DNA of 48,433 bases from a virus. The position numbers were made by a program, and so were the translations under genes. The DNA is taken from the IMG/VR virus record IMGVR_UViG_3300023210_000056, positions 1 through 48,433 of that record; one strand, 5' to 3'. Under the pieces are notes generated by a model. The model had not been told where the DNA came from. It did not search any database and saw only the letters and a program-made list of their open reading frames with translations. The stretch's first letter is position 1. Every line of letters starts with the position of its first letter. Below, piece after piece: positions 3,166 through 34,469 of the stretch.

Positions 3166-3798
3166 TTATTTCCACTTACCTTCTTTATGCATTTGACCTA
3201 AGACACATGCATATGCGTCTGTCATATCATAATTTTCTTTGGATAGTTTTTGGTGTTTATTATATAACCATACAATTTGTGGTTCTTTTTCATTCACTTT
3301 TTCCCATATAATTTGCTTCTTATCTATATCATATGAATGACCACCAAATAACACTGGGTTTTTCTTAGAAAGTTCTTTTTCAGTGTAAGGTTCGCCTTTT
3401 TTATTAATCTTTCTTATGTCCATTAGTTCGGGAAATGCATATTTTCTAGCATCATAAGAAGAAATAAAGTCTGGTACAATATTTAACACCTCATAAACTG
3501 CTTTACATATTAAACCATTAAACCTTAATAATGTCGCTACAGTATTTACGTTATTTGATCTAACTAAAGGTTCTTCAATAATTACCCTATCAATATCTAT
3601 GTCGCTATATTTTTCTAAAAAATCGTGCTGAAATATGTCTGATTTTTTTATTAGTAACTCAATGTTACTGGATGGTTTTGGTTTTACTATTGGTGTGATG
3701 TGTGTTAACAATTGTAACTTCCCATTATCACCAAAATCTTCAAATAATGATATACCAATAGTCTTGGTAGATACATCTAACCCTAAAATTCTACTCAT
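3166..3798 (-). CDS. RuvC-like Holliday junction resolvase / RNase H-fold nuclease
   Basis: This 210-residue protein has the acidic signature of the RuvC/RNase H fold: LGLDVSTKTIGISLF (Asp8) on strand 1, VIIEEPL (Glu75/Glu76) on strand 4, and DMTDAYACVLG (Asp191/Asp194) on the last helix. These would hold two magnesium ions for cleaving branched DNA. Cleaving junctions before packaging is the expected role, filled in T4 by the unrelated gp49. It follows the fibre-like gene at 3819 by 20 bases and precedes the primase promoter. A different junction-specific nuclease of the same fold remains possible, because the middle of the protein is not diagnostic. Confidence 0.82.
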   Translation of the reverse strand: MSRILGLDVSTKTIGISLFEDFGDNGKLQLLTHITPIVKPKPSSNIELLIKKSDIFQHDFLEKYSDIDIDRVIIEEPLVRSNNVNTVATLLRFNGLICKAVYEVLNIVPDFISSYDARKYAFPELMDIRKINKKGEPYTEKELSKKNPVLFGGHSYDIDKKQIIWEKVNEKEPQIVWLYNKHQKLSKENYDMTDAYACVLGQMHKEGKWK

Positions 3799-3818
3799 TT
3801 TAAAAACTTTATACTTCT

Positions 3819-5114
3819 TTATATTATAATTTGTACGTCAAATATTACATAATCATTTTTACATTTAACTATTTGTCTATCAGTTTTACCTATCGCCAAT
3901 ACATTGCCACTAACATCTGTTATAGCCACCTCACTAATCCTAACATCATCAGACAATCTAAATGTAGTGTTCTGAGTATTATAAAATTCACCTCTAGCTG
4001 CAATACAAACAATATTCTGTACTAAATCGTTTTGTATGCTATCAACAACTGAATTATAAGTGTTGGCAGAATAATAGTAAAGGCCTAATGGTGTAGTAAT
4101 TGTATTAGTATCGGTATCACCACTAAAATTAGTCGCAATATTGTTTACTATAGTTGGGTCAGTAATAGCAAAAATACCTTTATCTAAATATATGACACCA
4201 GCAATTTTATCCACATTAATACCAGTTGCTGGTATGTTTTGAACATTTATAGTCTCTTTGAACCCTTGACTAAATGGTTTAAATGAATCATAACCTGTTG
4301 ACCAACTTCTAGTTGCATCATTATTAGGTTTTTGTATGTCATCAGATACTAGATAGCTAACATTAATTTGATTCCCAAATAATGTTTGTGGGTAACTACT
4401 ATTGTCTTTATATTGAGCATCTAATGTACTATTAGATATTGTAGTTTTTGGGAATGTTGAATATAGTGTATAAGTAGTTATACCAGTAGCAGTTCCACCA
4501 GTAGTGTAACCAGTATAAACAGGTAAATCTATTTTAACTGACCTACCATCTATCATCTCACCATATTGTTCATTATTAATGACACCTAACAATAAATCAC
4601 TATTACCTAAACCACTAAATGGTGTATCACTCCAACCCCCATTTTGTGAGTTGGTGTTGGTAAAGATATTAACATTAGCTGAATTTATTGGTAAACTTAA
4701 ACTTTTGAATAAATTTGTAAAATCACTACTAGTACCACTTTTAACAATATTAACATATGTTAGGTTTGATCCACTTACCGTTGTTTCCCCAACCAACCTT
4801 AATGTTAATTCTAGTGCGGAAGATCCAGGTTCAACAGATTTTTTAGTTGTAGGTGCAGTTGTAACATATAATTTACTATTTACCCCTACCCCTTCGGCAA
4901 TATTATCATTAGTGCTACCATTATACCCTAAATCACCACTATTAACTGGAATTTTACCAGATGGTAATATTGCACTTGTAGTGTAGTTCGCGTCTGAATC
5001 ACCTAAAATGAAATGTGAAAAAATATTATTGTTATTCTGTATTAATCTTTCCCTACCTAATTTTGTTAATCTAGCAGTTATTGTAATTGTAGTTGCACTA
5101 TTTATAAATCCCAT
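3819..5114 (-). CDS. Fibre-like tail protein, 431 aa (paralogue of the next gene)
   Basis: The N-terminal ~45 residues (TTITITARLTKLGRERL ... ILGDSDANY) and C-terminal ~50 residues (DDVRISEVAITD ... VLAIGKTDRQI) match the ends of the 743-residue product upstream, while the middles differ. The layout recalls phage tail-fibre attachment domains with a GLALLA...VGDG pattern, so a baseplate-anchored fibre or decoration protein is likely. The middle is rich in Thr, Ser, Asn and Gly, as in beta-rich fibres. It lies last in the tail block, ten bases after its paralogue. The exact location on the virion is not shown by sequence. Confidence 0.7.
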   Translation of the reverse strand: MGFINSATTITITARLTKLGRERLIQNNNNIFSHFILGDSDANYTTSAILPSGKIPVNSGDLGYNGSTNDNIAEGVGVNSKLYVTTAPTTKKSVEPGSSALELTLRLVGETTVSGSNLTYVNIVKSGTSSDFTNLFKSLSLPINSANVNIFTNTNSQNGGWSDTPFSGLGNSDLLLGVINNEQYGEMIDGRSVKIDLPVYTGYTTGGTATGITTYTLYSTFPKTTISNSTLDAQYKDNSSYPQTLFGNQINVSYLVSDDIQKPNNDATRSWSTGYDSFKPFSQGFKETINVQNIPATGINVDKIAGVIYLDKGIFAITDPTIVNNIATNFSGDTDTNTITTPLGLYYYSANTYNSVVDSIQNDLVQNIVCIAARGEFYNTQNTTFRLSDDVRISEVAITDVSGNVLAIGKTDRQIVKCKNDYVIFDVQIII

Positions 5115-5124
5115 CTTTTTTTAT

Positions 5125-7356
5125 TTAAAAATCTATTGTTAATTCTAATGACGCAGTAGTAGAATTAGCAATTCTAATTGGTCTAGATAATTTACCTACT
5201 AAAACTAAATTCTGATTACTATCTAATATACCTACTTCACTAACATACCTATCATCCCCAAAATCATATGTAGGGTTACTACTACTAGATATTGAAGCTC
5301 CGTTTATGTTAATATTAAATAATGTTTTATATATAGTGGCTCCTATATATGTTTTTAAGTTACCATAAAACAATCTTTCATCACCAAACGTCATTTTACC
5401 ATAATTAGAAGCCGAAGACATATCTAATTCATTACCTAAATTAAACGTTGTCGCTGAAGCTCCACTATATAGCCCACCTGTTAATATAAACCCAGTTGTA
5501 TTAGGGTTTTGGTTCTCTAAAAGGAGTGGGTTAATTGTTTCACCAGTAACATCAGTAATATTAATAGATGTGAAATCCACTACTCTCCATTTGGATGGGT
5601 CTGGTCTATTAGTATTTGTTTTATTAATTACTTGTGTTAATAATTTAAAGTTGTCCGCATAAAAACCATATCCATCATACCCTACAGACTCTCGTTTTCT
5701 CATATATGGTAATTGACCCACATTGTTAATTCTAAACTGAACATCTTTATCAGAATTAGTTGTATTGTCTAACACAGTATATCTTTGATTAGGTAATGTG
5801 GGTGTTGTAACCGTTGTTGTACCCGTAGAACCCGTACCTGTGTTTGATAACCAATATGTCATATATAAACTTTCTCCTGCTTTTAACACACCAGTACAAT
5901 TACCATCTACTGAACTTACTAATTCACCTGTTAAATCAGGTAAAGTATAATTCCTATTTGATTTGTACGACATTGAAGCTAATAACTCTTCGTTATCAAT
6001 TACCACTATTTTTAATTGTGGGAATACTTTACCTACTACTAAAGGTTGGGTTGGCGTGACTGACATACCACTAAACTCTATTAAGTCATAATATTCGATA
6101 TCGTTATTAGTGGCAATTGTTTTTAAAACAGTATCAGAAACGAATTTCATACCTAATGTAGTCCCACTACCAGTACCTTCATTTCTTCTATGCCACATAA
6201 CAGGGATATCTAAACTTAATAACTTATTAGATTCTTCATCTATATAAAATTGTTCACCATAAAAGTTTGATATACAACTATTAGTGTAATGTAAAATACA
6301 TATACCCTTCTGAAATGGATCCATATAACTAATAGAATCTAATTTAGAACCAGTAGTTGATACAGTTAATGTATCGTTATACCCTAAGTATTGTTTAGTA
6401 CCCATAAATTGTTCAGAACCAAATAAAGTGTGTTCGTGATAATTTATAGGTGAATCTTTATATTGACCCACTAAGTTTTCCACCCACACATTATTCATAT
6501 TCCATACAGGAATATTTTCTACACATATGTCACAACTACTATCAAATGATAATGTACCTGTATTCCAATATGCAGTTAATGAACTTAACCCATAATAATT
6601 ATCTTCAGGATTATTACCCCCTGGAATAGTATAATAAGATATAATTGTACCCGAATATGCACTTAGTGTAGGTAATACCCTATCAACTTTAATTGTTGTA
6701 CCACTAATTTCAGTAATATTATAAAAAGTATTTATAGTTGCCGCAGTCATAGTATCACCACTATTATTACCCAATGTAGGATTAGAAAATTTAAATACTA
6801 TGTAATCGTTTACACTTGTCGCTGTAAGTGCGGTGTCTAACGTTAATTGACCTTGAGTATAAGGTGTTAAATCAACAGAACCGTCAAAATTACCTAAATC
6901 GATTGTACCACTTTCTTTAATAAATTCTGTAGTTGTAACCGCAGAAAGACCTAATTCTACAGATGACCCTGAGAAAAATCCTCTATCAGCGGCTTGATTA
7001 CTTACTAAACCTTTTATTAGTTGTATGTTACTTTGTTGGTTTAAGGGAAAAATAAATTGATTACTCTGATTTAATAAGAAGGTTGAAAAGAATGGGTTAT
7101 CGTCTTTAGGTCTTAATACCTGTGAAAAAATATTTTTAACAATGTTACCATCAGCCTCAGGAAACCAAAATTCCCCTGTAGAAGCACCTATACTTGGAAC
7201 AAATTGTGACCATCCCTTAACATACCCATAATCAACTTCTGAATCACCAATCATGTAATTATTAAACGATAATTGCCCTTTAGCTAACTGCTCTCTACCT
7301 ATGTCAGTTAATTTTACCCTTACTAATGTCGTACTTTGTTTATTTATGTAACTCAT
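5125..7356 (-). CDS. Fibre-like tail protein, 743 aa (paralogue of the neighbour)
   Basis: The N-terminus (STTLVRVKLTDIGREQLAKG ... YMIGDSEVDYG) and the C-terminus (DDRYVSEVGILDSNQNLVLVGKLSRPI) are shared with the 431-residue neighbour. This supports a conserved virion-attachment end and a conserved distal end around different central regions. The central part is Ser/Thr/Asn-rich and beta-like. Unusually for this genome the start has a clear Shine-Dalgarno sequence (AAGGAG, five bases before ATG) and a TATTTATA box upstream, suggesting high expression. It is probably a tail fibre or baseplate-associated receptor-binding protein. Confidence 0.7.
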   Translation of the reverse strand: MSYINKQSTTLVRVKLTDIGREQLAKGQLSFNNYMIGDSEVDYGYVKGWSQFVPSIGASTGEFWFPEADGNIVKNIFSQVLRPKDDNPFFSTFLLNQSNQFIFPLNQQSNIQLIKGLVSNQAADRGFFSGSSVELGLSAVTTTEFIKESGTIDLGNFDGSVDLTPYTQGQLTLDTALTATSVNDYIVFKFSNPTLGNNSGDTMTAATINTFYNITEISGTTIKVDRVLPTLSAYSGTIISYYTIPGGNNPEDNYYGLSSLTAYWNTGTLSFDSSCDICVENIPVWNMNNVWVENLVGQYKDSPINYHEHTLFGSEQFMGTKQYLGYNDTLTVSTTGSKLDSISYMDPFQKGICILHYTNSCISNFYGEQFYIDEESNKLLSLDIPVMWHRRNEGTGSGTTLGMKFVSDTVLKTIATNNDIEYYDLIEFSGMSVTPTQPLVVGKVFPQLKIVVIDNEELLASMSYKSNRNYTLPDLTGELVSSVDGNCTGVLKAGESLYMTYWLSNTGTGSTGTTTVTTPTLPNQRYTVLDNTTNSDKDVQFRINNVGQLPYMRKRESVGYDGYGFYADNFKLLTQVINKTNTNRPDPSKWRVVDFTSINITDVTGETINPLLLENQNPNTTGFILTGGLYSGASATTFNLGNELDMSSASNYGKMTFGDERLFYGNLKTYIGATIYKTLFNININGASISSSSNPTYDFGDDRYVSEVGILDSNQNLVLVGKLSRPIRIANSTTASLELTIDF

Positions 7357-7400: not shown

Positions 7401-10400
7401 TTAATATGATGTACCATTATTCGTTAGAATTTCTATCGATATGGTATTACTGTAACTAACACTATATATCTTTTCACCTATTATTGGGGTATAAAATTTT
7501 TCATTTTTAATTCTATATATAAATTTATCCCCTGCAACCGCATTTGTCAATGTTATTATCTTACTATATGTTTTTTGATTAACTATATAATCTACATTTT
7601 CACTATATAACACATTTTTAAATTCTATATCTGATACAGATGTTACTTCTATTGTAAATTTACCACTATCATTAGTCGGTTTAGTTTCAATAGACCAACT
7701 TATTAATGGGCTATTTGTTGATATTCCACCGATTACTGAATTAGTGGGTGTGTAAAACGCTTCTAATATATCCCCTACTATTAATGGTTCTTCTAATATA
7801 ATCCTTCTTATGTCGCTAACTGATTGGGTGTATTCTACATTAGGTGCCAATACCGAACCATTAACACTTAAAATAATATCACTTGCAGGGTTATTTATTA
7901 GATAATATTCATTTTTATTCTGAGTTGTATTATAAAATACTCTATCTGTCTCTAATTGTGTATTTGTTGCACCACTATTTATTATTGAATTTATAATATA
8001 TAAATCAGCAAAAAAGTCATTAGGTGATCCATTGGCTACATATGCATATGTCAATGTTTGATTATCTAAGGGTGTAAATAATAACCTTATTAATGGGGTT
8101 GGTGATCCAGATAACCCACTAGTTATCGCACTATACTCTATATTTTTAGCTAATACCGAACCATTATAACTTACAATTGGGTCAGATAATCCTTGTATAC
8201 TATAATCTGTTATTCCTGATTTAGTAAACTGTGTCGCCACTACTAAATTATTAATTCCTCCTATATTTGGTGCCACAGAACTATTAAATTGTGGTTTGCT
8301 AGCTTCTAACATATTAATAAAATACCAATCTGTTTCGGGAACATATAAACCATATATTTCACCTCTTTTATACATACTTAAAGTACTCAATCTAACATTT
8401 TGTTGTTTAGCAATTAATGTGTTTACATCATAATCCCAGTAAGATTTTATTAAAAATTCCCCTTCTCCTATATTGATACTATTTAGGGTAATTGTATTAG
8501 CGGTATTTCCTGTTAAATTTTCATATGGAATTGTAAATGTTTGTAATGCTGACGTAGAAAAATCACCACTATTCTGATTATATTTATAAACTTCACCATA
8601 ATAAGATAATTTTTTAGGTATAACAACGTTATTAACATTATTAACTAATAAATTAAAATTAAAACTTAATCTACTTAAAGGTGTTATATAAACATATCTA
8701 TCACAAGATATTGCTTTATCTGTAATTACATTAGGTAAACCCCATTGGGATCTTGTCCCACCACTTAAATTAAATCCATTTTCTTGGAAATTACATTGTA
8801 CCCCTAATCCATTAGGTCGGTGAATAGTATGTAAAACTACTTTATTTAAATCTGCGACATATATTCTTTCATCTGAACCCATCTGCAACGCACCTAAACT
8901 ACTACCACTTATATTACCCACTTCTATTTCATTTTCTAAAATATCCGTTGCTGCAGTATATGATAAGTTATATTGGTATATCTTTTCTCCTGCACCTTCT
9001 GAAACATAAAATTTAGAAGAGTCTGAAGAAAATTCTAACCCATAAGGACCGATATCGAATGTCTTTCCTGTTATTGTTATAAAATTACTTAGTGTACCTG
9101 CAGAAGCTTCAAAATCAAATATATCAATAATGTCTTCATCATATAACACAGAAATTAATTTTGTGCAGTCAGGAGATGTTTTCATATAACCTCTAGCAGT
9201 ATTGTGTGTATGACCGATATTTGTGATTATTGGACCACTTAACCCCGCAGAGTTTACTTTATAAGAATAGTAAGATGTATCACCACTAGTGTGGGTTATC
9301 ACCCAATAAGCATCTTCTGTACTATGACTACACGCTGTAACTTTTTCAGTTAATGATGTGTTAATTAATTTTATGTTTTTAGTTTCTACTTCACCATCAC
9401 CACCTTGTAAATCCATATTAACTATAGAATACTCAAAACCATTAGGTGATCCATTATAATCTGTTGTAAAAATATAATATTTGTTTGAGTCTGGTTCGGG
9501 TATAATAATAGAAGATTGTGTAGATGTACCTGAGCTCGACAACCCTGTTCCGTTAACCATAACTGTATTACCACTTGTGTATACTGTTTCTCCATTTGTG
9601 TAAAATAATAGTTTACCATTTTGATTTGATATCGATGAGACACCTTCTTGAGATTCCATAGCACCACTCAAAGGTGTTGGCGTACCACCACTTTGTATTG
9701 GATCAAAAGTTATTCCTGCATTATCACCAAAAAACCAATTATAATTTAATCTATCATATGTGTACCCCGTATATGTAATCGGTCCACATAATGTATCTGC
9801 TGAAGATGTAGGTATTTTTCTAGTACCCCTAATCGTAACTTGTGGAAAATCAAAACTATCAAAATCTGACCTTTCCACATGTGGGTATAATTCTTCATTA
9901 CTTACTGGTTGCCACCCATAGTTATTACTTTCACTTCTACTAGATAATAACTGATATTTTTTACCATTATCAATATATAATATCTGATTATTTGCACTTA
10001 TAGAAGGATCTAAGATATTACATTTTGTACCAACAACCTCTATTGATGGTGCTAAACAACTAGCACAACCATTATTAACCGTAGAAGTTATAACTGGTAA
10101 TGAAGAAGAACATAAGGTTATTGACCCCGCTAAACCACCATCACTCTTTACACTATCACTAACAGTATCCCCAAACTCATCTTCATAAGTAAAAAAGGTT
10201 TCACAATAAAATGTAGGTAAACATTTAAAACCCGTAGTTTTAACTGTATATATTATTGTTTGTAACTGAGCATCTTCACTTTCATTACCTTTAAAAAATA
10301 ATGGTATTAATTGTTCAGTTTGTCTATTTCTAAATATAGATTGTCCGTTTTTAGTGGGTGTTGGGTAAACAAAAATATTATTTATTTTACTTAAGTCTGT

Positions 10401-10559
10401 TGGTAAAAACCAAGCCTTTTTACCACTTAAAAATGATGATAATGAGCTAGCTTGATACACCATACTGGTGGTAATATTAGTTTCAATGGGTGCATCAGTT
10501 GACTTTATTAACTTTGCGTTTACGGATGATGTTTTTATTTTAGCTCTTAAGTTTGTCAT
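7401..10559 (-). CDS. Tail protein with host-like beta-propeller domain, 1052 aa
   Basis: Three regions are visible. Residues 1-270 are unrecognised and include several Cys. Residues ~270-610 look like the propeller segment common in secreted, surface-attached Flavobacteriia proteins: NYNWFFGDNAGITF, then GKLLFYTNGETVY, a TQSSIIIPEPDSNKYYIFTTD stretch, and YGLEFSSDSSKFYVSEG. Residues ~780-1000 hold at least two beta repeats of a NGSVLAxNxEY...RxxxxxPLxxGDxLxAxYT type seen in tail fibres. It lies between the giant tail gene and the two fibre-like genes, so it is probably a receptor-binding or surface-attachment component. The propeller assignment is from pattern memory of the family and needs a profile search. 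Confidence 0.75.
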   Translation of the reverse strand: MTNLRAKIKTSSVNAKLIKSTDAPIETNITTSMVYQASSLSSFLSGKKAWFLPTDLSKINNIFVYPTPTKNGQSIFRNRQTEQLIPLFFKGNESEDAQLQTIIYTVKTTGFKCLPTFYCETFFTYEDEFGDTVSDSVKSDGGLAGSITLCSSSLPVITSTVNNGCASCLAPSIEVVGTKCNILDPSISANNQILYIDNGKKYQLLSSRSESNNYGWQPVSNEELYPHVERSDFDSFDFPQVTIRGTRKIPTSSADTLCGPITYTGYTYDRLNYNWFFGDNAGITFDPIQSGGTPTPLSGAMESQEGVSSISNQNGKLLFYTNGETVYTSGNTVMVNGTGLSSSGTSTQSSIIIPEPDSNKYYIFTTDYNGSPNGFEYSIVNMDLQGGDGEVETKNIKLINTSLTEKVTACSHSTEDAYWVITHTSGDTSYYSYKVNSAGLSGPIITNIGHTHNTARGYMKTSPDCTKLISVLYDEDIIDIFDFEASAGTLSNFITITGKTFDIGPYGLEFSSDSSKFYVSEGAGEKIYQYNLSYTAATDILENEIEVGNISGSSLGALQMGSDERIYVADLNKVVLHTIHRPNGLGVQCNFQENGFNLSGGTRSQWGLPNVITDKAISCDRYVYITPLSRLSFNFNLLVNNVNNVVIPKKLSYYGEVYKYNQNSGDFSTSALQTFTIPYENLTGNTANTITLNSINIGEGEFLIKSYWDYDVNTLIAKQQNVRLSTLSMYKRGEIYGLYVPETDWYFINMLEASKPQFNSSVAPNIGGINNLVVATQFTKSGITDYSIQGLSDPIVSYNGSVLAKNIEYSAITSGLSGSPTPLIRLLFTPLDNQTLTYAYVANGSPNDFFADLYIINSIINSGATNTQLETDRVFYNTTQNKNEYYLINNPASDIILSVNGSVLAPNVEYTQSVSDIRRIILEEPLIVGDILEAFYTPTNSVIGGISTNSPLISWSIETKPTNDSGKFTIEVTSVSDIEFKNVLYSENVDYIVNQKTYSKIITLTNAVAGDKFIYRIKNEKFYTPIIGEKIYSVSYSNTISIEILTNNGTSY

Positions 10560-10574: not shown

Positions 10575-13500
10575 TTAAATACAATTATGGATTAATTCTG
10601 TGTTATAGAATGGTCCGTCTGGATCCCAGTCCGAATCTCCTAAAATAACAACATTACCCTCATACTCATTAGTATCATAAATTTGTGTTATAAAAGCAGT
10701 TCCTTCTTCTTTGGTTTTCAACATATAAGACTTTCTTATACATTTATTTAAATTACTTCTAACATTCGCAATAAAATTTCTTTGTCTCTCGTAGTTAGTG
10801 GTTCCAGGAATAAAATTAGATAATTCTTTCTGTGCATTTACTAAAGACTCTGTTAACCCACTACAAGATAAAAACTTAGAATAGTAGTCTTGTTGTTGTA
10901 ACGTATATTGAGTTTGTTGTTCCACTAATTCTAATAATAAATTAGATAAGTCTGTTTGTTGACTACTTAATGTTTCATTTGTACCACTAATTTGGGTATT
11001 TAATTCACTTATATTTGATTGTAAGTCAGGTGTATCTTTATCTTGTAAATTCAATGAACATAATCTTTTGTTCAATTGTTTTATTTGGTTTTGTGTGTTA
11101 GAAATTAAAACTTTATTAGTTAAAATATTATTTTTAGTCTCTTTTATCTGAACATTAGTGGGGTATAGTGGTATATCTTCCAAAACTGCGTATACACTTT
11201 GTGACCCTATACTAAAATCAGTTTTTCCACTTACAGGGCAATGATCCCCACAAAGTATATTTAAATTATATTTTTTATAATCATATTTATTTTGATCAAA
11301 AATAGTGTTTCTAAAAATTTTACCAGAATTATCACACCCTTCCCAAATTGTTGTTGCTGGAACAACTTGCTCCAATAAGTCCAACCAATAATCACCTATT
11401 TTATCCATAAACTCGAATAGATTGTTGTAGGTAAGTTTACCACTTAATTCTTCACCACAGTTATTGGCGGTTAAATATAGTTGGTAGAATAATCTCAGTG
11501 TAGGGTAGTCACTTATTGTTTGTCTACTCTTAGCGTCTATAAGGTTACTTAACACCATAGAGTCAAAATTATCTTTTACATTGATTTGGGATGGTGTAAA
11601 ATCTAAATAATCTAACGGGTTAACACATACACCAACAGTTTCTCCAGTTGTAATCCCCGATAAACAATCTTCCCTACTAATTACTTTCTTAGTACCATAA
11701 TATTCACAATCTCCTTTACAACTATTAATATCTTTCCAATTACAACTATTTGTTGTGGTATCCCAAACGTAATTTTTATCAATACCTAACCCTAACGTAC
11801 CATTATCATTAATTAAACCATTTAACGATGTACAACATTCTAATGTCATACCAGTTGTTTGGTTAAATGTTTGAGCCGTTATACCACTTAAAACTTCTGT
11901 TAATGTTCCACCACTATATGGTGTACTACCACTATAAAGATAACTCTCATAAAAAGATAAAGTACCATCATTATTTTCAGTAATTAACCCAAATAAATTA
12001 TCTAAATTACTACTATTATTAATCACAATAGTATCACTCCCACAATTATTTTTTTCTATATAAAATTTAGAAAGACTTCCACCTTTCTTTATTAAGTCGT
12101 AATAACTAGCGTTCAATGATTCGTTATAGTCAGCAGTTAATGTGTAGTAATCATTCTTTAGTTCTAACACCTGATTAGATAGTATTGTTGTATATGTATC
12201 ACAACTAAATAATATACCACTGGTGGACGCTGAAACGTCTAATGTGTAGTTTCCTAATGTATCTGATGTATACACTTGACCACTAAATGTAATTGTCTCA
12301 CCAGAAGTACAACTAGTGGGGCAATTATCACAATCAATATTTTTCCAAAAATTATAAACATCACATTCTATCGACTTAGCTGGGTCAATACTAAATGAGG
12401 TATTTTTTACGTTTAAAATTAAATCTGAATGGTTTACATCATAATTAGTATATCTATATTCTAAATTAGTCCACAATCTTTCTTCTGGTGTTGTTAACTT
12501 AGTAATTGTAGTGTTATTTGTAGATTCAGTGTTACATTCACCATCAGAGTAAATAGTCTCAGTAACTACCCCCGTATCAGTGTATACCCAAGACTTTTTA
12601 TTGTCAATAACACAACTTAGTTGAGGTATTAAACAATCGTTCAATGATATCAACCTGTTTGTTTGACAATCAGTTACATTAACCCTTATATTGTCAACTA
12701 ATAAACAAACTGAACACTCATAATTTTCAATCTCTATTGAGAAGAAGTATTCTTTGTTGGGGTATAGTCTTCTTAAATCATCACACACACATTCTGGTAT
12801 CGTATAATTAAGTGTTTGCCAATTTGGTTCAAACATATCTGATGAGAAATCAATATTCTGAGTAGATAAACTATCAAAAATAGCGTCTTCTATCGTAGCA
12901 ATTTCTATTTCACTTCCAGATAATATCACACCACTATATTGTTGGGTTGGATCCCATTCCCAAATAGGGTTAATTGATTGCGTATAAGGTAAATATGTTA
13001 AGTCACTATCAATATTTGTGTTAATATCAACACCATTGTTAACAAACAATTTAAAGTTTATTTTTAAGTCATCTAAATATTTTAAATAATTTTTTTGTTC
13101 TAACACTAAATAGTTATCAAAGTTTTGGTTTAACGTATTTAACCAATTACTATAACAATTTTCTGTTTTTATTTCTATATTAATCAATTCAGATTCTAAC
13201 TCTATTAAAGTATTCTGTAGTTGTTTAAGAATTATATCTGAACAACATAAATTAGGTAACGTATCACCACTATTTGGTGGTACAAAACCTAATGGGAAAC
13301 AACCTAATGGTGATGATAAGTATTCAACATCAAAACCAGTTACAGATTTATTACAACAATCTGGACCTAAAGGTACACCATCAAATAATATTTGACCTAT
13401 TGGGTTAGCTGAGGACTGAAACAAAGATAAGTCATTAGGATTATCCGAAGATGGGCAATCCTTACCACCACCACCAACATTACCATTAAAATTAACATCA

Positions 13501-16500
13501 ACACATACCGATTTTGAATTACTTGAGGTTGTCCATACACCATATGGTGTACAACATTCTTCTGATAATGGTACACCATTTGCAAACACTTCACCAATTA
13601 GATTAGTAGAAAATAAATCACCAGCAACCAAAGAAGGGCAAGGATTTCCAATAGTAGAACCATCTCCTTTACCAGGTTCAACAGTTAACGAACCACCACC
13701 ACCTTTACCAATGCCCGCCGCACCAATTGCAGCAGTCACAACACCAGTAGTTGTTTCAGGATCTAAAAACCCTTTAAGGAATAGTCCCGCACCAATTAAC
13801 CCTACACCCCAACTTAACAACGTAGAACCTAAATTATTACCATTTCTACTATTATTTATTTCATTAGTTTTAGAGATATTGTTAGATTTTAAAGACTCTA
13901 TTTCACCTTTTTCTAATAATAGTGACGATATTTGAGATTCGTTTTTAACAAAGATAATATTTAATTCTATTTTTTGTGAAGTAGTTAAACTTAAACTACC
14001 ATTACCATCAGTAATACTTTCTGTTGTTGTATTTAATAGTTTAGCAGTTTCATTAATTGTATTTGTTATATCATTAATTTGTAATTGTGATTTTTGTAAA
14101 GAAGAATCAGGTTCAATAAATTCACTACCCCTTTGAGTTTCTAAATTAATCCTTATTTGGGTTTCGAATATCTCTTTTTCTAGTTCGTTTATTAAAACGG
14201 AATTATTATCAAATTTCGCTTGTACTAATCTACTTTGTAAATCATTATATGTCTGACAATTTATTAATAAGTTATTATAAACTAGTATTTCTTTTTCATT
14301 AATTAATTTTTGTTTATTAATGCAACTACTAAACTCTTCGTTTTTATTTAATGAGTTAGGTGTTAAAGTACCATAAACTTGTGTAGTACAAAAATCATTA
14401 TAGTTAAAATTGTTTAATTCTTTTATTTTATTTTCATAGATTGTACAATCTAAATCAGTATTTATTTCTGTAGTTGCTTGACTAATGACTATATTATCAC
14501 TTCTTTTTTGTTGTATCTGACTATCAATATCAACTATTTTTTTATCTAACGATACTCTTTCTAATAATAAATCAGATACTTCGTTTTTTAATTGATTCTG
14601 AGTAGTATTTTTAGACTTTGTTTCAGATTGGCTCTGAGTAGCTTGCTCATTCTCTATATTAACATCAGTATTCGATCCATTGTTTTCTACTGTCCCATCA
14701 TTATTTATTACTATTGGGTCACCGCAATTAATTTGATATTGTTCAATTACATTTTTAACAGAGTCTATAAGTTTTCTATGATCAGATAATGTTTTAGACC
14801 ATAACCCACATTCTAATGGTACATCTAATGAACAAATATTTGCTGTTTGGATATATTGGGAATAGTCAATATCACAAAATGATGTAGGTGGTAACAAAAT
14901 ATTGTAACACCCATTTAATGTGGTATTTAAATTATTTAGTGTGTCATCAAAACCATTTATATAGTCAGTTAACTCCACAGGAATTTCTTTTAATACCTCA
15001 CCATCTCTAATACTTTGGTACTGTGTAATAATGAAATTAACCCATACTTGATTATTTGATGCCCATTCATTAACCGAAACTACATTTCCACCAATTGCAT
15101 TACAACAATCCACATTAGGTTCTATAATACAATTATTGTTTTGCCACACAACATATTCTTCTGTAGGTGTTGTACCATCATTATTAAAATTATTTACTAA
15201 TGATAGTGAGTCATCTGGGTTCTCTTCGTTAGAGGTAAATGCTATGAAATTCCTACAATTTAAATTGTTTAAGGAGACATCGTTAAAAATAGATGGGTTA
15301 CAAGGGTCTTTTTTAGTACACTCCATTAAATTCTCAGCACTATATTTTAACATATAATCAAAAGAGAAATCGATTGTACAGGAACAATCTTCTAACTCAG
15401 GTAATCTAAACCCTTGCCACTTTTCACTTGCAAAGGTAACTAATACGTTATTAACATCGTCACAACCAATTCTACTACTATCAACCGCTGCAGTAATAAC
15501 ACTAGTAGGGGTGATTACAAATTCACCTGACCCTTCGTATGGTATTAAAATACCATCACAATTAAATGTAAACTCACCAAAAGTATAACCATAAAAATTA
15601 GACACTTGCTGGTATAATACAGATGTTTGATCAATAGAATTCCAATCTAATACAAAATCATAAAAAGGATCTTTAGGTGTGAAACTAATTCTCCCTAATG
15701 AATCAATAGTATTAACTTTCCACTCAGAAGGATTATTTAATGTTGATGAGGAAAATAATGCGTTGGGTGTAGTGAATAGACTATTACTATTAGGGTCTGG
15801 ACCTAATAATATTACTGATTCTTCAAAACAATCTTTAAACATATTAGTGGTATAGTATGAAACTATATCACCGACAGGGTTTTGATATTCATTATATGTT
15901 GTATTTGCACTTATATTTACAATAGGTAATATAGGTTGTGCATCATTAATTGTTAATTCTGGTGATTCTTGACCACCATTTTCAACACAGACAATATATT
16001 CATTCTTATCCACCCCTAAAACTATTTGGTAATCATATCCATGCCATGCACAACATTCAGGACTACTAATGATTGTAGTAGAATTACAATCTACTTCTTC
16101 AAAATATAACCCAAAATTAGAAAGGTTTTCGATATTCCCTAATAAATATAGTTCTAAATATTCTACTATACCATAACCTGTTTCATTAATAAAAATTTGT
16201 TCACTTAAAACTTCCCCACCAGGGACTTTAACGTATTTGTATTGAAAACATTTACCACCAATATTATATATGTTATCTGGTATTGTGTTATTTTCCATTT
16301 GGAACACTATTATTCCAGTCTCAATATCCTTACTTACAGGTTTACCTACACATGGTGCTTTTTCTGAACAATATTCAGATCTGACTCCAGATTCATTTAC
16401 ATATGATATGTGTTGGAAGTTATAATCTTCAAATTTATCGCTATAACTCCTACAACATTCGCTAAATTCATCAAAAGTAGTTTTAATACCAGATTCATCA

Positions 16501-17348
16501 ACATAATATAAAAATGGTGAACATGTTGTAACAGCACTTAACGTATCACAATTAAATGGTAATATATCTGGAACTAATTCGTTTACGCATATTTCTAAAG
16601 TGTTATTAGTGTCACAATTTTCTGTAGAAACTTCTAACAAACAATTATTTTGTGCCAATTCATAATTATTTTTAATTATTTGCCACTCAGGAGAATATTG
16701 TAAATAACTATCAACACTTATTTTCTGCTCAAAATCTTTATATTCTGTTTCTGCAATTGCAAATTGTTGTTGGAACGTAGTTTTACCATCATTTTGTAAT
16801 GGCGTTTCTATTACACTATAATTTACATCCACACAATTATTTATCGGTTGGTATTGGTTTGTTGTAGAGTTATAAGTTAATTGTGAGGTATAAAAATCTG
16901 TATCACCTGTTGGGGTACCATTGAAAATTCCATAATTATAATTTGTGAAATAATTTTTTGTTATAGTATTTGCAGTGACAGTAACTGTTGGTTCAGAATT
17001 AAAGTTAGGTATGTAACATCTACTAAAATATTGTAAATATTCATTACCACCATCGTATTCCCCAACATGTGGGTTATTACCATTTAATATTGTTGGTGAT
17101 CCTGAACCGTAAGTTTCTCTATACCACCCACCTCCTTTTTGAAAGTACATATCTGTTGTCCCATCTTGAACTAATAAACCAGTCTCTGGGTCGATGAAAT
17201 CTGTCACCACTAATTGACCATCTATTGGTGGTAGTGGGTAACCATTTTTATCGTATGGGATATTATTTAAATCATTTTCACTAACTTCTCCAGTGTAGAT
17301 ATATAATAATTTTTTTATTTCATCCATATCTAATGGTTTATCCACCAT
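10575..17348 (-). CDS. Giant cysteine-rich tail/baseplate protein, 3' part (2257 aa)
   Basis: This is the larger part of a gene whose 5' part is the frame at 17486-18883; about 46 coding codons continue in frame upstream of the ATG at 17348 with no start codon. The N-terminus has a motif-rich head (MYFQKGGGWYRETYGSG and PHVGEYDGGNEYLQYF). At least six modules of the form (E/D)CC...G...C/W occur near residues 298, 431, 748, 1266, 1331 and 1837. Long helical, probably coiled-coil stretches lie near 940-1150 and 2090-2170, and two glycine-rich hydrophobic segments near 1165-1210. It is a virion structural protein, probably baseplate or tail tip. Its many Cys are unusual for T4-like tails and suggest disulfides or metal sites. 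Confidence 0.8.
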   Translation of the reverse strand: MVDKPLDMDEIKKLLYIYTGEVSENDLNNIPYDKNGYPLPPIDGQLVVTDFIDPETGLLVQDGTTDMYFQKGGGWYRETYGSGSPTILNGNNPHVGEYDGGNEYLQYFSRCYIPNFNSEPTVTVTANTITKNYFTNYNYGIFNGTPTGDTDFYTSQLTYNSTTNQYQPINNCVDVNYSVIETPLQNDGKTTFQQQFAIAETEYKDFEQKISVDSYLQYSPEWQIIKNNYELAQNNCLLEVSTENCDTNNTLEICVNELVPDILPFNCDTLSAVTTCSPFLYYVDESGIKTTFDEFSECCRSYSDKFEDYNFQHISYVNESGVRSEYCSEKAPCVGKPVSKDIETGIIVFQMENNTIPDNIYNIGGKCFQYKYVKVPGGEVLSEQIFINETGYGIVEYLELYLLGNIENLSNFGLYFEEVDCNSTTIISSPECCAWHGYDYQIVLGVDKNEYIVCVENGGQESPELTINDAQPILPIVNISANTTYNEYQNPVGDIVSYYTTNMFKDCFEESVILLGPDPNSNSLFTTPNALFSSSTLNNPSEWKVNTIDSLGRISFTPKDPFYDFVLDWNSIDQTSVLYQQVSNFYGYTFGEFTFNCDGILIPYEGSGEFVITPTSVITAAVDSSRIGCDDVNNVLVTFASEKWQGFRLPELEDCSCTIDFSFDYMLKYSAENLMECTKKDPCNPSIFNDVSLNNLNCRNFIAFTSNEENPDDSLSLVNNFNNDGTTPTEEYVVWQNNNCIIEPNVDCCNAIGGNVVSVNEWASNNQVWVNFIITQYQSIRDGEVLKEIPVELTDYINGFDDTLNNLNTTLNGCYNILLPPTSFCDIDYSQYIQTANICSLDVPLECGLWSKTLSDHRKLIDSVKNVIEQYQINCGDPIVINNDGTVENNGSNTDVNIENEQATQSQSETKSKNTTQNQLKNEVSDLLLERVSLDKKIVDIDSQIQQKRSDNIVISQATTEINTDLDCTIYENKIKELNNFNYNDFCTTQVYGTLTPNSLNKNEEFSSCINKQKLINEKEILVYNNLLINCQTYNDLQSRLVQAKFDNNSVLINELEKEIFETQIRINLETQRGSEFIEPDSSLQKSQLQINDITNTINETAKLLNTTTESITDGNGSLSLTTSQKIELNIIFVKNESQISSLLLEKGEIESLKSNNISKTNEINNSRNGNNLGSTLLSWGVGLIGAGLFLKGFLDPETTTGVVTAAIGAAGIGKGGGGSLTVEPGKGDGSTIGNPCPSLVAGDLFSTNLIGEVFANGVPLSEECCTPYGVWTTSSNSKSVCVDVNFNGNVGGGGKDCPSSDNPNDLSLFQSSANPIGQILFDGVPLGPDCCNKSVTGFDVEYLSSPLGCFPLGFVPPNSGDTLPNLCCSDIILKQLQNTLIELESELINIEIKTENCYSNWLNTLNQNFDNYLVLEQKNYLKYLDDLKINFKLFVNNGVDINTNIDSDLTYLPYTQSINPIWEWDPTQQYSGVILSGSEIEIATIEDAIFDSLSTQNIDFSSDMFEPNWQTLNYTIPECVCDDLRRLYPNKEYFFSIEIENYECSVCLLVDNIRVNVTDCQTNRLISLNDCLIPQLSCVIDNKKSWVYTDTGVVTETIYSDGECNTESTNNTTITKLTTPEERLWTNLEYRYTNYDVNHSDLILNVKNTSFSIDPAKSIECDVYNFWKNIDCDNCPTSCTSGETITFSGQVYTSDTLGNYTLDVSASTSGILFSCDTYTTILSNQVLELKNDYYTLTADYNESLNASYYDLIKKGGSLSKFYIEKNNCGSDTIVINNSSNLDNLFGLITENNDGTLSFYESYLYSGSTPYSGGTLTEVLSGITAQTFNQTTGMTLECCTSLNGLINDNGTLGLGIDKNYVWDTTTNSCNWKDINSCKGDCEYYGTKKVISREDCLSGITTGETVGVCVNPLDYLDFTPSQINVKDNFDSMVLSNLIDAKSRQTISDYPTLRLFYQLYLTANNCGEELSGKLTYNNLFEFMDKIGDYWLDLLEQVVPATTIWEGCDNSGKIFRNTIFDQNKYDYKKYNLNILCGDHCPVSGKTDFSIGSQSVYAVLEDIPLYPTNVQIKETKNNILTNKVLISNTQNQIKQLNKRLCSLNLQDKDTPDLQSNISELNTQISGTNETLSSQQTDLSNLLLELVEQQTQYTLQQQDYYSKFLSCSGLTESLVNAQKELSNFIPGTTNYERQRNFIANVRSNLNKCIRKSYMLKTKEEGTAFITQIYDTNEYEGNVVILGDSDWDPDGPFYNTELIHNCI

Positions 17349-29074: not shown

Positions 29075-30907
29075 CTATGAGGTAGAAATAGTTACTTTTA
29101 TATCTTTTGATGGATATTTTATTTCAAACATTGCGTTTGGTGTTCCAAATAAAGTGTACTTACCTAATAAGTCTATTTGTCTAGTATCTTCATCTATATA
29201 TGGTTGAGCAATCTCATTTAGAGAATATTTACCATTTTCATTAACTTTATTATAAACCCTTAGATCTGTCACATTTAAAACCCCAGCAACATTATTAACA
29301 TTTTCTATTAGTTGAGATAGATAGATGTTATCCCCCATATCCCACTTATTAATATCTAAATATGTTTTTATCGTATTGATGGTGTTATTAATTACCTCAC
29401 CTTGTGGTATTGTGTTTTCTATAAATAAATCAACTTCAAAACCTAAATTAATTACTCTACCATTTTTAATAGTTACATAATCGTTTAACATTCTAAAGTC
29501 AGCCAAATATTCTGATATATTATTTTTTAAAGTACTAGTGGCTTCTGTAGTTAATTTACTTTCAGAATCTAAAGATAGTATAGAAATATTAATTTTGTTT
29601 CTTTCTTCCCAAACACCAGTTCTAAATGGTGTACCAAATTTACCCGACATTAAAGGTATCCTACTTTGGTAATCTTTTATTGTTACACATCTATTTTGAG
29701 CCGAAAAGTTATATCTAACTAAGTTTCGGATTTCATCCACTGAAGGTTCTTCTTTACCACCTAAAGCTGGTATAATATTATTAACACCAATACTACTTCT
29801 TATTATATTATTAGTATTTTGGTTATTACCTAATACGATTATATTACCAATACCTTTAGTTGTTAAAACATTTGGTCCAATGTTAGAGTCTTCTCCACCA
29901 CCAACTCTATATTTTATATACATTGTTTGACTTGGTTTAGGTATCTCACCCAACGATTGATTATTAATCGTATTACCAATATCATCTATTTGACCTCTAC
30001 AACCCACAAATTCATTGAGTTCTGTTATATCTGACTGACCACCACCAAAAATAACTTTACAAAATCCATTATCCGTATATTCTTTTATAAACCTTTTAGG
30101 ACTATTCTTCCATTTACCAACAACTACACCTTCACGATCAGAAACTTTATTACTATCTTCTACATATATCTCAGCTTGTGCCAATGCTGGTACCTCATAA
30201 AAATTTAAATCGAAGTTATTGAACTCCTCTTCTGTGGGTGGGTTAATTAAATTAGTACCCTCTTTAAATATAATATTTTCTATAGATAATACATTATCAT
30301 CAGGTAATACAATTTCTAAAAATGGTTTAAAATCTTCCTGAGACATAGTTCTTTTATATATTTTAGTAAAACCATTTAATACTATCTCACTTTTTATAAG
30401 TGTATAACTTTGTATAATTCCATCACCATCTATTTGTGGTATAATTTTTCTGTTAGGAATACCTCCAGTAGTGAATGGGGAAGCGAAATCACAATCTTCT
30501 AATAATTCAAATACCTTTCCACCACCAGTGGCTTGTGTACCCTTTACTAATCTAGGGGCGTATTCAATATCAAAAGTATCACCGTTAACGGGAATATTAT
30601 TAGCTGTCCATTCAACTACCGTTATACTAGGTCGTTTACCTGGTACGTTTAACCCAAAAGTCCTAGCTAATTCTAAAAGTGATGACTTTTCTTGTGCGTA
30701 GTTAATTTGGGTTTCATTAAACATTCTATCAGTATGAAATGATAACATATCACCCACCGCAGCGTTTAATTCTAATAACATCATACCCACAGAAGCATCG
30801 TTAAAATCTGAAAAAGTTTCAGGGTAATATTGTTTTATAAAACTTATTAGCTGTTGTCTTACTTCTGCAAAATTCCTAGCGTTATAATCGATCTTCTTTG
30901 TTGCCAT
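29075..30907 (-). CDS. Baseplate wedge protein, T4 gp6 / phage J-like
   Basis: This 610-residue protein matches the gp6/baseplate J family. The N-terminal FAEVRQQLISFIKQYYPETF ... DASVGMMLLELNAAVGDMLS, then FHTDRMFNETQI, is the conserved dimer region of wedge proteins. The C-terminal half has the family pattern of a CVTIKDYQSRIP segment followed by a beta-alpha domain (EVDLFIENTIPQGEVINNTI). In T4, gp6 forms the inner iris of the baseplate with gp25 and gp53. Here it directly follows the gp25-like gene by four bases, the usual order. Size agrees with T4 gp6. Confidence 0.9.
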   Translation of the reverse strand: MATKKIDYNARNFAEVRQQLISFIKQYYPETFSDFNDASVGMMLLELNAAVGDMLSFHTDRMFNETQINYAQEKSSLLELARTFGLNVPGKRPSITVVEWTANNIPVNGDTFDIEYAPRLVKGTQATGGGKVFELLEDCDFASPFTTGGIPNRKIIPQIDGDGIIQSYTLIKSEIVLNGFTKIYKRTMSQEDFKPFLEIVLPDDNVLSIENIIFKEGTNLINPPTEEEFNNFDLNFYEVPALAQAEIYVEDSNKVSDREGVVVGKWKNSPKRFIKEYTDNGFCKVIFGGGQSDITELNEFVGCRGQIDDIGNTINNQSLGEIPKPSQTMYIKYRVGGGEDSNIGPNVLTTKGIGNIIVLGNNQNTNNIIRSSIGVNNIIPALGGKEEPSVDEIRNLVRYNFSAQNRCVTIKDYQSRIPLMSGKFGTPFRTGVWEERNKINISILSLDSESKLTTEATSTLKNNISEYLADFRMLNDYVTIKNGRVINLGFEVDLFIENTIPQGEVINNTINTIKTYLDINKWDMGDNIYLSQLIENVNNVAGVLNVTDLRVYNKVNENGKYSLNEIAQPYIDEDTRQIDLLGKYTLFGTPNAMFEIKYPSKDIKVTISTS

Positions 30908-30910
30908 ATA

Positions 30911-31294
30911 TTAAAATGTTAATGTAACTGTATCTGTACTATTAAAAGTTCCATCTGTTACTGTGTAAGTTAACTCTACTATTATTAATTCTTCAATGTT
31001 GTTATTTTTAAATGTTATGTCATTTATTATAAGGTTGGGTATGTACCTCTTAATGTTTTCATTTAAATTATCTTTTATCTGTTCATGAGTAATACTATCA
31101 TTAGGTTCAAAAATATACTTTTTTAAATCACTACCAAAATCAGGTAGATATAACCTTTCACCTTTATTAGTTAATAATAAATGTAATAAGTAAGACCTAA
31201 TAGCGTCTGTATTAGTACTATTTAGTTTAAAATAAAACCCTTTGTCGCTATCTTTGAAGGGGAAATCAATATTTATATATCTTTGTTTTGCCAT
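30911..31294 (-). CDS. Baseplate wedge protein, T4 gp25-like (GPW/gp25 family)
   Basis: The 127-residue product has the family core: LLLTNKGERLYLPDFGSDLK followed by KYIFEPNDSIT, then a helix and IIVELTYTVTDG near the end. Proteins of this family start sheath assembly in contractile tails and sit in the baseplate core with gp6 and gp53. It is the first gene of the baseplate run, four bases before the gp6-like gene. It starts 130 bases from the divergent plus-strand gene, with a TATTTATA box seven bases upstream of its ATG. Confidence 0.92.
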   Translation of the reverse strand: MAKQRYINIDFPFKDSDKGFYFKLNSTNTDAIRSYLLHLLLTNKGERLYLPDFGSDLKKYIFEPNDSITHEQIKDNLNENIKRYIPNLIINDITFKNNNIEELIIVELTYTVTDGTFNSTDTVTLTF

Positions 31295-32606: not shown

Positions 32607-34469
32607 TTAGTTAATTTCACAAGCTCCACCTGCACAAGCTAACTCACCACTTAAATCAGTTTCGTCAGTTTCTTCTACAATTAGAGACAAATCAATGTTA
32701 TTTAAATGTTTTAACATTTCATTATAGGTATCTTCAGTGATGTCCTCAAAAGGGGCTTGTGTATATGTACCACCATTATAAGGTAATACAGACAAACCAT
32801 TATAATGTTCTTTGTTTGTCCACATCCATTCACCAGCTAACCCCCAATCTTCTTCTTTAAGTGATATAGTAGCAGAAACATTGTGAGTGTTAGAACCATT
32901 TCTGTGTCCACTTTTTACCCATTCTGTTGCCACTTTCTTAACCCTTTCTAAAAGGTCGAAAGGTGATTCAGTTCTTAATATAGAACCCTTTGGTGCTTTT
33001 TGTGGTATGGTAATAATTGCAGTATCATGTGATCGGAAGAAATCATCTTCTAACAATTCTGGATGATTAACAATTAAATATTTATATATTGATTCGTTTT
33101 TACCTACTCTAATTCTTCTAATATAATAATCATTGTGCCAAGCATGTATTCCTGATGATGTACCTAAAGTTAGAGATGTTGTCCCAGCAGGTTTCACTGT
33201 AGTACACCTAGCAGATTTATTAATACCAATAAGTTTAGCAACTTTACTATTTTCTCTTTTTACAATATCTGCAGATTTTTCTAAGTCATAACCTAACACA
33301 ACTCCACTACCTATTCCTGTCATAGAAACACCTATTAGAGCGTCTTTCTCTGTGGTTTCTTGCCATATCTCCCTAAGATAATGAAAGTCCGTATAACCCG
33401 CTTGTAACGTTCCTATGAATGCTGCAGCTTTAACTCTTTCGTTTAGGTCTTCTTGTGATTCTATATTTGAAACGTTAACTTCACATAGATTACAGAATTG
33501 GAATGGTCTTAAGGCAATCTCACAACAAGGATTAGTTCCCCATTCTTTATCATTAGATAAATAAATTCCTGGTTCACCAGCACCAGACAATTCAATTCTT
33601 TTCCACAACTCCATAAAAAATTGTTTAGTAATTTTATGCCTAATGAGAACTGCTGAATTATTTGATCTACCTCTTTGTGGATTAGTTTCCCACCAGTTAC
33701 CTGATTTACAAGAAATCATTTCATCATCATCTGCACTAAATAATGAAATTAAAGCTGCCCTACGAATACCACCAGCTAACACTGCATCTGCAATATGACA
33801 CACAATGTCATGTGTTTCAAGTGTAGTTAATTTTTCACCATCAGATTTATTTTCTAAAATACCTGTTATCTTAACAATACATTCTTTTAGTGGTTGAGGT
33901 CCTGGTGCTTTACCACCAGAAGTGACTAATCTAGCACCCTTTGCTCTAATATCGGAAAAATCAAATTCTATAGTAGAACTTCTTTTATCACCAATATATG
34001 ACTTCATTAATACTTTAATAGAATCTGCCCAACCTTCGATAGAGTCTCCAATTAAGAATCTTCTTTTTCTTTTAGTATATGGTTTATTAATTGGTTGTAA
34101 TTTTTCCACATGATGTTTTTGGACTGAGTACCCCACACCTGTACCACCTAAAAGTAAAAACATTGTTTCACTAAAGGATTCAACTGCGTCAATAGGTAAA
34201 AACGCACAATTATAAACTCTGTTTGGTGATATCTCAATAGACTTACCAGCAAATTGCATCGACCTCATCGATGGTAAAACTTTTTTATCGTGTACTAATT
34301 TATACTTCTCTTCTATTTCCCCTTTTAATTCTGGATACTTTTTAATATGCATATTTTTATTTCTTGTAACTAATTCATCCCAAGTTTCTCTTCTATTTAA
34401 TTCTGGAACATACTTAGCATATTTCATATACACTGTAATTTCTGATAGTATTTTATTTGATATATTCAT
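32607..34469 (-). CDS. Adenosylcobalamin-dependent ribonucleotide reductase (class II)
   Basis: This 620-residue enzyme would reduce ribonucleotides to deoxyribonucleotides for phage DNA synthesis. The motifs fit the monomeric triphosphate-reductase branch (Lactobacillus RTPR type). NPCCEI places the thiyl-radical Cys at 315 with Asn313 and Glu317. Cys326 in FCNL and Cys88 in YNCAF would be the redox pair. The C-terminal CAGGAC (Cys612, Cys617) is the CX4C shuttle pair. The Cys315-Cys326 spacing of 11 equals that of RTPR Cys408-Cys419. The usual Gly after the thiyl Cys is a Cys here (316). No small-subunit gene is present, as expected for class II. It needs host or environmental B12. Confidence 0.9.
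   Translation of the reverse strand: MNISNKILSEITVYMKYAKYVPELNRRETWDELVTRNKNMHIKKYPELKGEIEEKYKLVHDKKVLPSMRSMQFAGKSIEISPNRVYNCAFLPIDAVESFSETMFLLLGGTGVGYSVQKHHVEKLQPINKPYTKRKRRFLIGDSIEGWADSIKVLMKSYIGDKRSSTIEFDFSDIRAKGARLVTSGGKAPGPQPLKECIVKITGILENKSDGEKLTTLETHDIVCHIADAVLAGGIRRAALISLFSADDDEMISCKSGNWWETNPQRGRSNNSAVLIRHKITKQFFMELWKRIELSGAGEPGIYLSNDKEWGTNPCCEIALRPFQFCNLCEVNVSNIESQEDLNERVKAAAFIGTLQAGYTDFHYLREIWQETTEKDALIGVSMTGIGSGVVLGYDLEKSADIVKRENSKVAKLIGINKSARCTTVKPAGTTSLTLGTSSGIHAWHNDYYIRRIRVGKNESIYKYLIVNHPELLEDDFFRSHDTAIITIPQKAPKGSILRTESPFDLLERVKKVATEWVKSGHRNGSNTHNVSATISLKEEDWGLAGEWMWTNKEHYNGLSVLPYNGGTYTQAPFEDITEDTYNEMLKHLNNIDLSLIVEETDETDLSGELACAGGACEIN

Follow-up and report, generated by a model that had tools for sequence, protein, structure and literature searches.

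A predicted β-propeller related to Bacteroidota surface proteins occupies an exchangeable site in a tail-region protein of T4-like phages

Protein X, encoded on the minus strand at 7401..10559 of an IMG/VR viral contig (the window, i.e. the whole stretch of 48,433 nucleotides that was analysed), is a 1052-aa ORF product of the tail/baseplate region and harbours a domain that is, by prediction, a β-propeller. Whole-domain homology assigns this domain to a propeller family of T9SS-secreted surface proteins of Bacteroidota. Our preferred reading, to which we give a probability of about 0.55, is that a tail protein of a T4-like phage, whose host is probably a member of Bacteroidota, carries the propeller as a binding module that is host-derived and exchangeable. 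X would be a peripheral baseplate or tail fibre component, built of a conserved C-terminal module (residues 618-1052) with one insertion site directly ahead of it, and in the ancestor of the clade a propeller from a Bacteroidota secreted surface protein would have been spliced into that site. The propeller would be displayed on the virion as a swappable binding module, and may help the phage to grip a conserved component of the host surface, either a glycan or a protein. This account draws on the presence of PA14-like replacements at the same site in relatives, on the surface-protein origin of the domain and on the propellers known in phage receptor-binding proteins, such as that of phi11, in which a pocket of the propeller may be able to hold GlcNAc (PMC4901313).

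The propeller covers residues about 271-612 of X (8724..9749, minus strand). Homology to Bacteroidota secreted proteins, profile matches and the fold obtained with AlphaFold and Foldseek all agree with the first-pass annotation, which had placed it at residues ~270-610. The peptides LNYNWFFG, GKLLFYTNG, SIIIPEPDS, LEFSSDSS and GLPNV lie at positions 271, 315, 350, 508 and 607 of X, respectively. The N-terminal part of the protein (residues 1-95; 10275..10559, minus strand) is common to the clade and is the least conserved, with a mean pairwise identity of 43%. It is followed by an insert of the window copy with several Cys (residues about 96-186; 10002..10274, minus strand), which is absent in 14 of 14 other alignment rows and matched no Pfam family, and by a clade-wide strip ahead of the propeller (residues 187-250; 9810..10001, minus strand), ending in RSDFDSFDFPQVTIRGTRKIP. 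The N-terminal sequence had been described as unrelated; it is made up of residues 1-95 and 187-250, which are common to the phage clade, and of the insert, which is found in the window copy only. Behind the propeller, the conserved C-terminal module (residues 618-1052; 7404..8708, minus strand) contains both copies of NGSVLA, at 799 and 900, and these are the fibre-type repeats that had been noticed beside the domain.

When the domain alone was modelled with AlphaFold, using 12 sequences, an all-beta structure was obtained (pLDDT 82, pTM 0.86). The best Foldseek matches in the PDB were propellers, namely archaeal surface-layer YVTN, Bacteroides lactonase-like, WD40 and YWTD proteins, with moderate TM-scores of about 0.3-0.6; six and seven blades are both compatible. 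Structure prediction, which had been proposed as a check on the fold, thus returned an all-beta propeller and no fibre fold. The model of full-length X was poor (pLDDT 58, pTM 0.35) and is not used as evidence. Sequence searches of the PDB with the domain, both single and profile, gave no significant match, and comparison of the window protein with Pfam, PHROGs and NCBIfam gave propeller hints below threshold only.

A phage-only alignment, scanned against 84,980 bacterial and archaeal genomes, found a Chitinophagales protein with 41% identity to the phage query (residues 25-362, E 1e-66), a similarity far above what chance would produce, a second Bacteroidetes protein with 31% (E 4e-40) and a 5.7-kb contig inside a Flavobacteriales MAG with 79%. 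Outside Bacteroidota, the search for the domain consisted of this strict scan. Judged by its gene content, this contig is a relative of the phage. With a profile made of ten phage and two bacterial copies, matches at E<=1e-20 were obtained in 66 of the 395 Bacteroidota genomes sampled, many of them with several copies, and E-values among sequences outside the profile went down to 1e-101. The patterns NNWYFG...AG and GNLLFYTDG...V, which had been taken as hallmarks of the bacterial proteins, can be read in most bacterial copies (NNWYFG/NIWYFG). Identity between phage and bacterial copies is mostly 30-40%, and that between bacterial copies has a mean of 39%, so that the phage copies are about as close to the bacterial ones as these are among themselves. 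Neither Pfam nor NCBIfam has a model matching the propeller domain.

Most bacterial copies come straight after a signal-peptide-like start. In L030 (4208-6394) the propeller is followed by PKD domains and a CHU_C/Bac_Flav_CTERM sorting signal, and the L029 proteins have SprB repeats, with the sorting signal also present in the one that has a complete end. These T9SS type B secreted proteins and X share a homologous propeller (30-43% identity) with the same hallmark motifs. However, the bacterial propeller stands behind a signal peptide and is accompanied by PKD or SprB repeats and a sorting domain, whereas the phage propeller sits within a tail protein with none of those features. In X, Pfam and NCBIfam detected no T9SS domain, the start is without a hydrophobic stretch and the propeller is internal. 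Since X has neither signal peptide nor sorting domain, it is not itself a T9SS protein, although its domain is a member of the family. Two Cys are retained in nearly all phage propellers and are variable among the bacterial ones; given this variability, a conserved disulfide is kept as a hint only. L211, which has a T9SS-like C-terminus, was put aside as probably bacterial.

In an unrooted tree of 55 propellers, all 20 phage rows form one clade (100/100) among more diverse bacterial rows, and the bacterial rows sampled do not single out a donor lineage. Phylogeny, the other check that had been suggested, thus places bacterial relatives beside the phage copies, and the domain is not confined to phage tail proteins. 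Transfer from a bacterium to a phage ancestor appears much the likelier direction, in view of the wide bacterial distribution of the family and of the existence of phage relatives without the propeller. Transfer from phage to bacteria would be compatible with a tree that is unrooted and in which one long branch (0.83) joins the phage copies, but we consider it very improbable: the bacterial family, with its 66 genomes, is more diverse and often multi-copy, and the propeller form of X is restricted to one clade, the rest of the group having none. The first-pass interpretation is supported in part: the bacterial family, the single phage clade and the orthologues without propeller support the presence of a Bacteroidota surface-protein propeller in a phage tail-region protein, whereas the direction of the transfer is one that we infer.

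Orthologues of X are present in 26 other viral contigs (31-254 kb), nearly all of 950-980 aa and in the same gene order: a large variable protein, X, a 743-aa protein, a 431-aa protein, a RuvC-like and a primase-like protein. In the window, the variable neighbour upstream of X has 2257 aa (10575..17348, minus strand). The 743-aa (5125..7356, minus strand) and 431-aa (3819..5114, minus strand) neighbours are conserved group-wide and have a fibre-like start motif, judged by eye. A T4-like baseplate wedge protein is encoded at 29075..30907 on the minus strand (PHROG baseplate wedge, E 1.2e-17; 28% to the wedge protein of Flavobacterium phage immuto), and its presence marks the cluster as one of baseplate and tail genes. 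Next to it, at 30911..31294 on the minus strand, lies a gp25-like baseplate protein (immuto 'baseplate assembly protein', E 4e-10; Microcystis phage Mel-JY01 'tail lysozyme', E 3e-9). X is encoded within this tail/baseplate cluster, which is syntenic in all relatives, and the most likely assignment of X is to the peripheral baseplate or the fibres, given the baseplate genes upstream and the fibre-like 743-aa and 431-aa neighbours. In L010, the place immediately upstream of X, which the 2257-aa protein takes in the window, belongs to a gene (3679-5496) whose product combines YadA head repeats with an autoproteolytic chaperone domain (Peptidase_G2), as is typical of fibres and spikes. Elsewhere, the window contains a ribonucleotide reductase gene (32607-34469; PHROG E 1e-131), with replication genes on one side and baseplate genes on the other, a 1758-aa protein (42620-47896) with no PHROG match at E 0.01, and one tRNA-Arg (TCT) gene (1569-1643).

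The nearest isolates, immuto and Mel-JY01, share both the gp25-like and gp6-like baseplate genes and their order, but identity is about 28% and their fibre region has neither a propeller nor a clear orthologue of X. A tblastn search of INPHARED with the domain, the whole of X and the 743-aa neighbour gave no match with any of these three queries, and thus no isolate carries X at the sensitivity of this search. The host is probably a member of Bacteroidota, because a Flavobacterium phage is among the nearest baseplate relatives and a phage contig lies in the Flavobacteriales MAG. When the 743-aa neighbour was searched against the 395 Bacteroidota genomes, only that known contig matched.

Scans with the 743-aa and 431-aa neighbours revealed some 50 phage contigs that are more distant and share this gene order, and the propeller profile had no match in any of them. 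The C-terminal module of X is found in all propeller-less relatives with a complete X (profile, mostly E 1e-50 to 1e-86). Most of these proteins have about 475-500 aa, and consist of the C-terminal module and, ahead of it, a strip of about 50 residues that has ..MSSDxCxFxxPxFxxSGASKIDC at its end. The end of the strip at residues 187-250 of X is the counterpart of this N-terminal strip: residues 218-250 of the window protein (..RSDFDSFDFPQVTIRGTRKIP) align with a relative up to its residue 47, with modest hhalign values (E 9.4e-5, probability 59%). The C-terminal module starts at residue 620 in the window and at residue 53 in the relative (hhalign E 4.5e-28). From these end and start points, the relatives have about six residues where X has the stretch of about 370 that contains the propeller.

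In other relatives the same junction is filled by a Cys-rich module that bears a weak PA14 signature, or by unrelated modules about 150 residues long. Seven of nine PA14-like modules matched Pfam PF07691 at E<=0.1, the best of them (E 1.3e-4) with a score of 22.3, below the curated cut-off of 24. Modules are thus exchanged at a defined site among the relatives of X. In L015 (5527-9183), which belongs to the propeller clade, the last propeller blade encloses a PA14-like domain, which is homologous to the PA14-like modules that stand in for the propeller in relatives. When a tree was built from 68 rows of the 743-aa neighbour, the contigs with a propeller formed one group (support 100), which implies one change, a single gain; the PA14-like modules require three changes, and all states together six. 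No repeats, a possible trace of recombination, were found at the domain boundaries of the propeller. In most relatives the site is empty, so that no such module is needed for infection across the group; this counts against the preferred reading.

Within the X clade, mean pairwise identity is 69% for the propeller, 43% for residues 1-95, 61% for residues 187-250 and 53-55% behind the propeller, and 20 of 20 distinct clade members have kept the propeller. The supposed binding part is not diversifying faster than the rest of X; as its most conserved and not its most variable region, the propeller is unlike a fast-changing receptor tip. Such conservation may point to a ligand that is itself conserved, or else to a structural role. 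A propeller that stabilises or builds up the tail tip or baseplate, and binds no ligand, would explain both the high identity and the retention in all 20 members, and the seven-bladed propeller that forms the core of the T7/SU10 tail nozzle is a precedent (PMC9509320). We nevertheless regard a structural role as unlikely, as the orthologues of about 50 related contigs have no propeller or have a PA14-like module instead, and the relatives of the propeller are bacterial surface proteins.

These same relatives, T9SS type B and SprB-repeat proteins of the host, raise another explanation, in which the phage domain would bind to the same partner as the secreted proteins of the host, e.g. a surface anchor or a gliding component, through a shared receptor or by mimicry. 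The phage copies are, however, 60-70% diverged from the bacterial domain, and such sharing seems improbable. Propellers are known in phage depolymerases and in lactonases, and the PDB fold matches include lactonase-like proteins of Bacteroides, so an enzyme that clears the host surface, glycan-degrading or esterase-like, was also considered; but the fold similarity is only general (TM 0.3-0.6), no enzyme family was matched in Pfam, NCBIfam or PDB sequence searches, and we judge an enzymatic role to be even less probable than a shared partner. An exchangeable binding module is the reading that we favour, and the PA14-like modules that fill the same junction in relatives support it indirectly.

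The propeller was also found in other phages, by a further viral scan with a bacteria-rich profile. In L184-L195, L205, L206 and L213-L215 it occurs in stand-alone proteins (about 370-475 aa), behind a signal-peptide-like start; most of these proteins have a PKD-like end, and no T9SS signal was seen in them. A terminase is encoded in at least three of these contigs (L184, L185 and L189). As far as can be read from these sequences, there is at least one further phage lineage with a secreted version of the propeller, and this version may act as a decoy, in superinfection exclusion or as a virion part. Giant proteins (2250-3400 aa or more) in L216-L218, L220 and L221 match the propeller weakly at two places, near the N-terminus and around residue 1420-1740, and those of L217 adjoin a tail-fibre-like gene. 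The window clade and the secreted type are apart in every bootstrap tree; two independent captures are not claimed, since the AU test leaves a single clade unrejected (p 0.31). We find it doubtful, somewhat more so than a structural role, that Bacteroidota phages repeatedly recruit the T9SS propeller of the host, both displayed on the virion, where it would share the partner of the host protein, and as a secreted stand-alone form. If this were true, phage and host would share a recognition system in adhesion or gliding.

Several known systems resemble X in part. Gp45 of the Staphylococcus phage phi11 also has a propeller in an adhesion-region protein, but it is five-bladed and trimeric, its receptor is known and, according to PDB searches, its sequence is unrelated to X (PMC4901313). 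BACON domains in the tail proteins of crAss-like phages, for which a role in host binding has been suggested (PMC6949934), are likewise Bacteroidetes host-type domains in phage tail proteins; they differ in fold, are present as tandem repeats and belong to gut crAss-like phages, whereas X has one propeller and belongs to a T4-like group. Extracellular contractile injection systems have a conserved anchor and binding modules that are exchangeable and were acquired horizontally; propellers are among these modules (PMC12923769). This arrangement of conserved anchor and swappable modules is that of X, although these systems deliver toxins and are not phages, and their modules are C-terminal, whereas those of X precede the conserved C-terminal module. 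The nozzle protein of SU10/T7 is also a phage tail protein in which a propeller has nested insertions (PMC9509320), but it is a core structural protein of short-tailed phages, whereas the propeller of X is dispensable across its group.

It is thus already known that tails of Bacteroidetes phages can carry host-type domains, that phage adhesins can have propellers and that contractile injection systems have swappable modules. What is new, as far as our searches reach, is the presence of this domain, its connection with T9SS surface proteins and the clear examples of relatives in which the site is empty or holds another module. Taken together, X offers a clear case of a phage tail protein with a defined exchange site at which a domain of host surface proteins has been taken up. 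It also brings to light an unannotated domain family, present in 66 of 395 sampled Bacteroidota genomes, whose phage copies suggest a binding domain and may provide a route to its ligand. The module site could be used to study the determinants of adsorption in a large group of uncultured T4-like phages.
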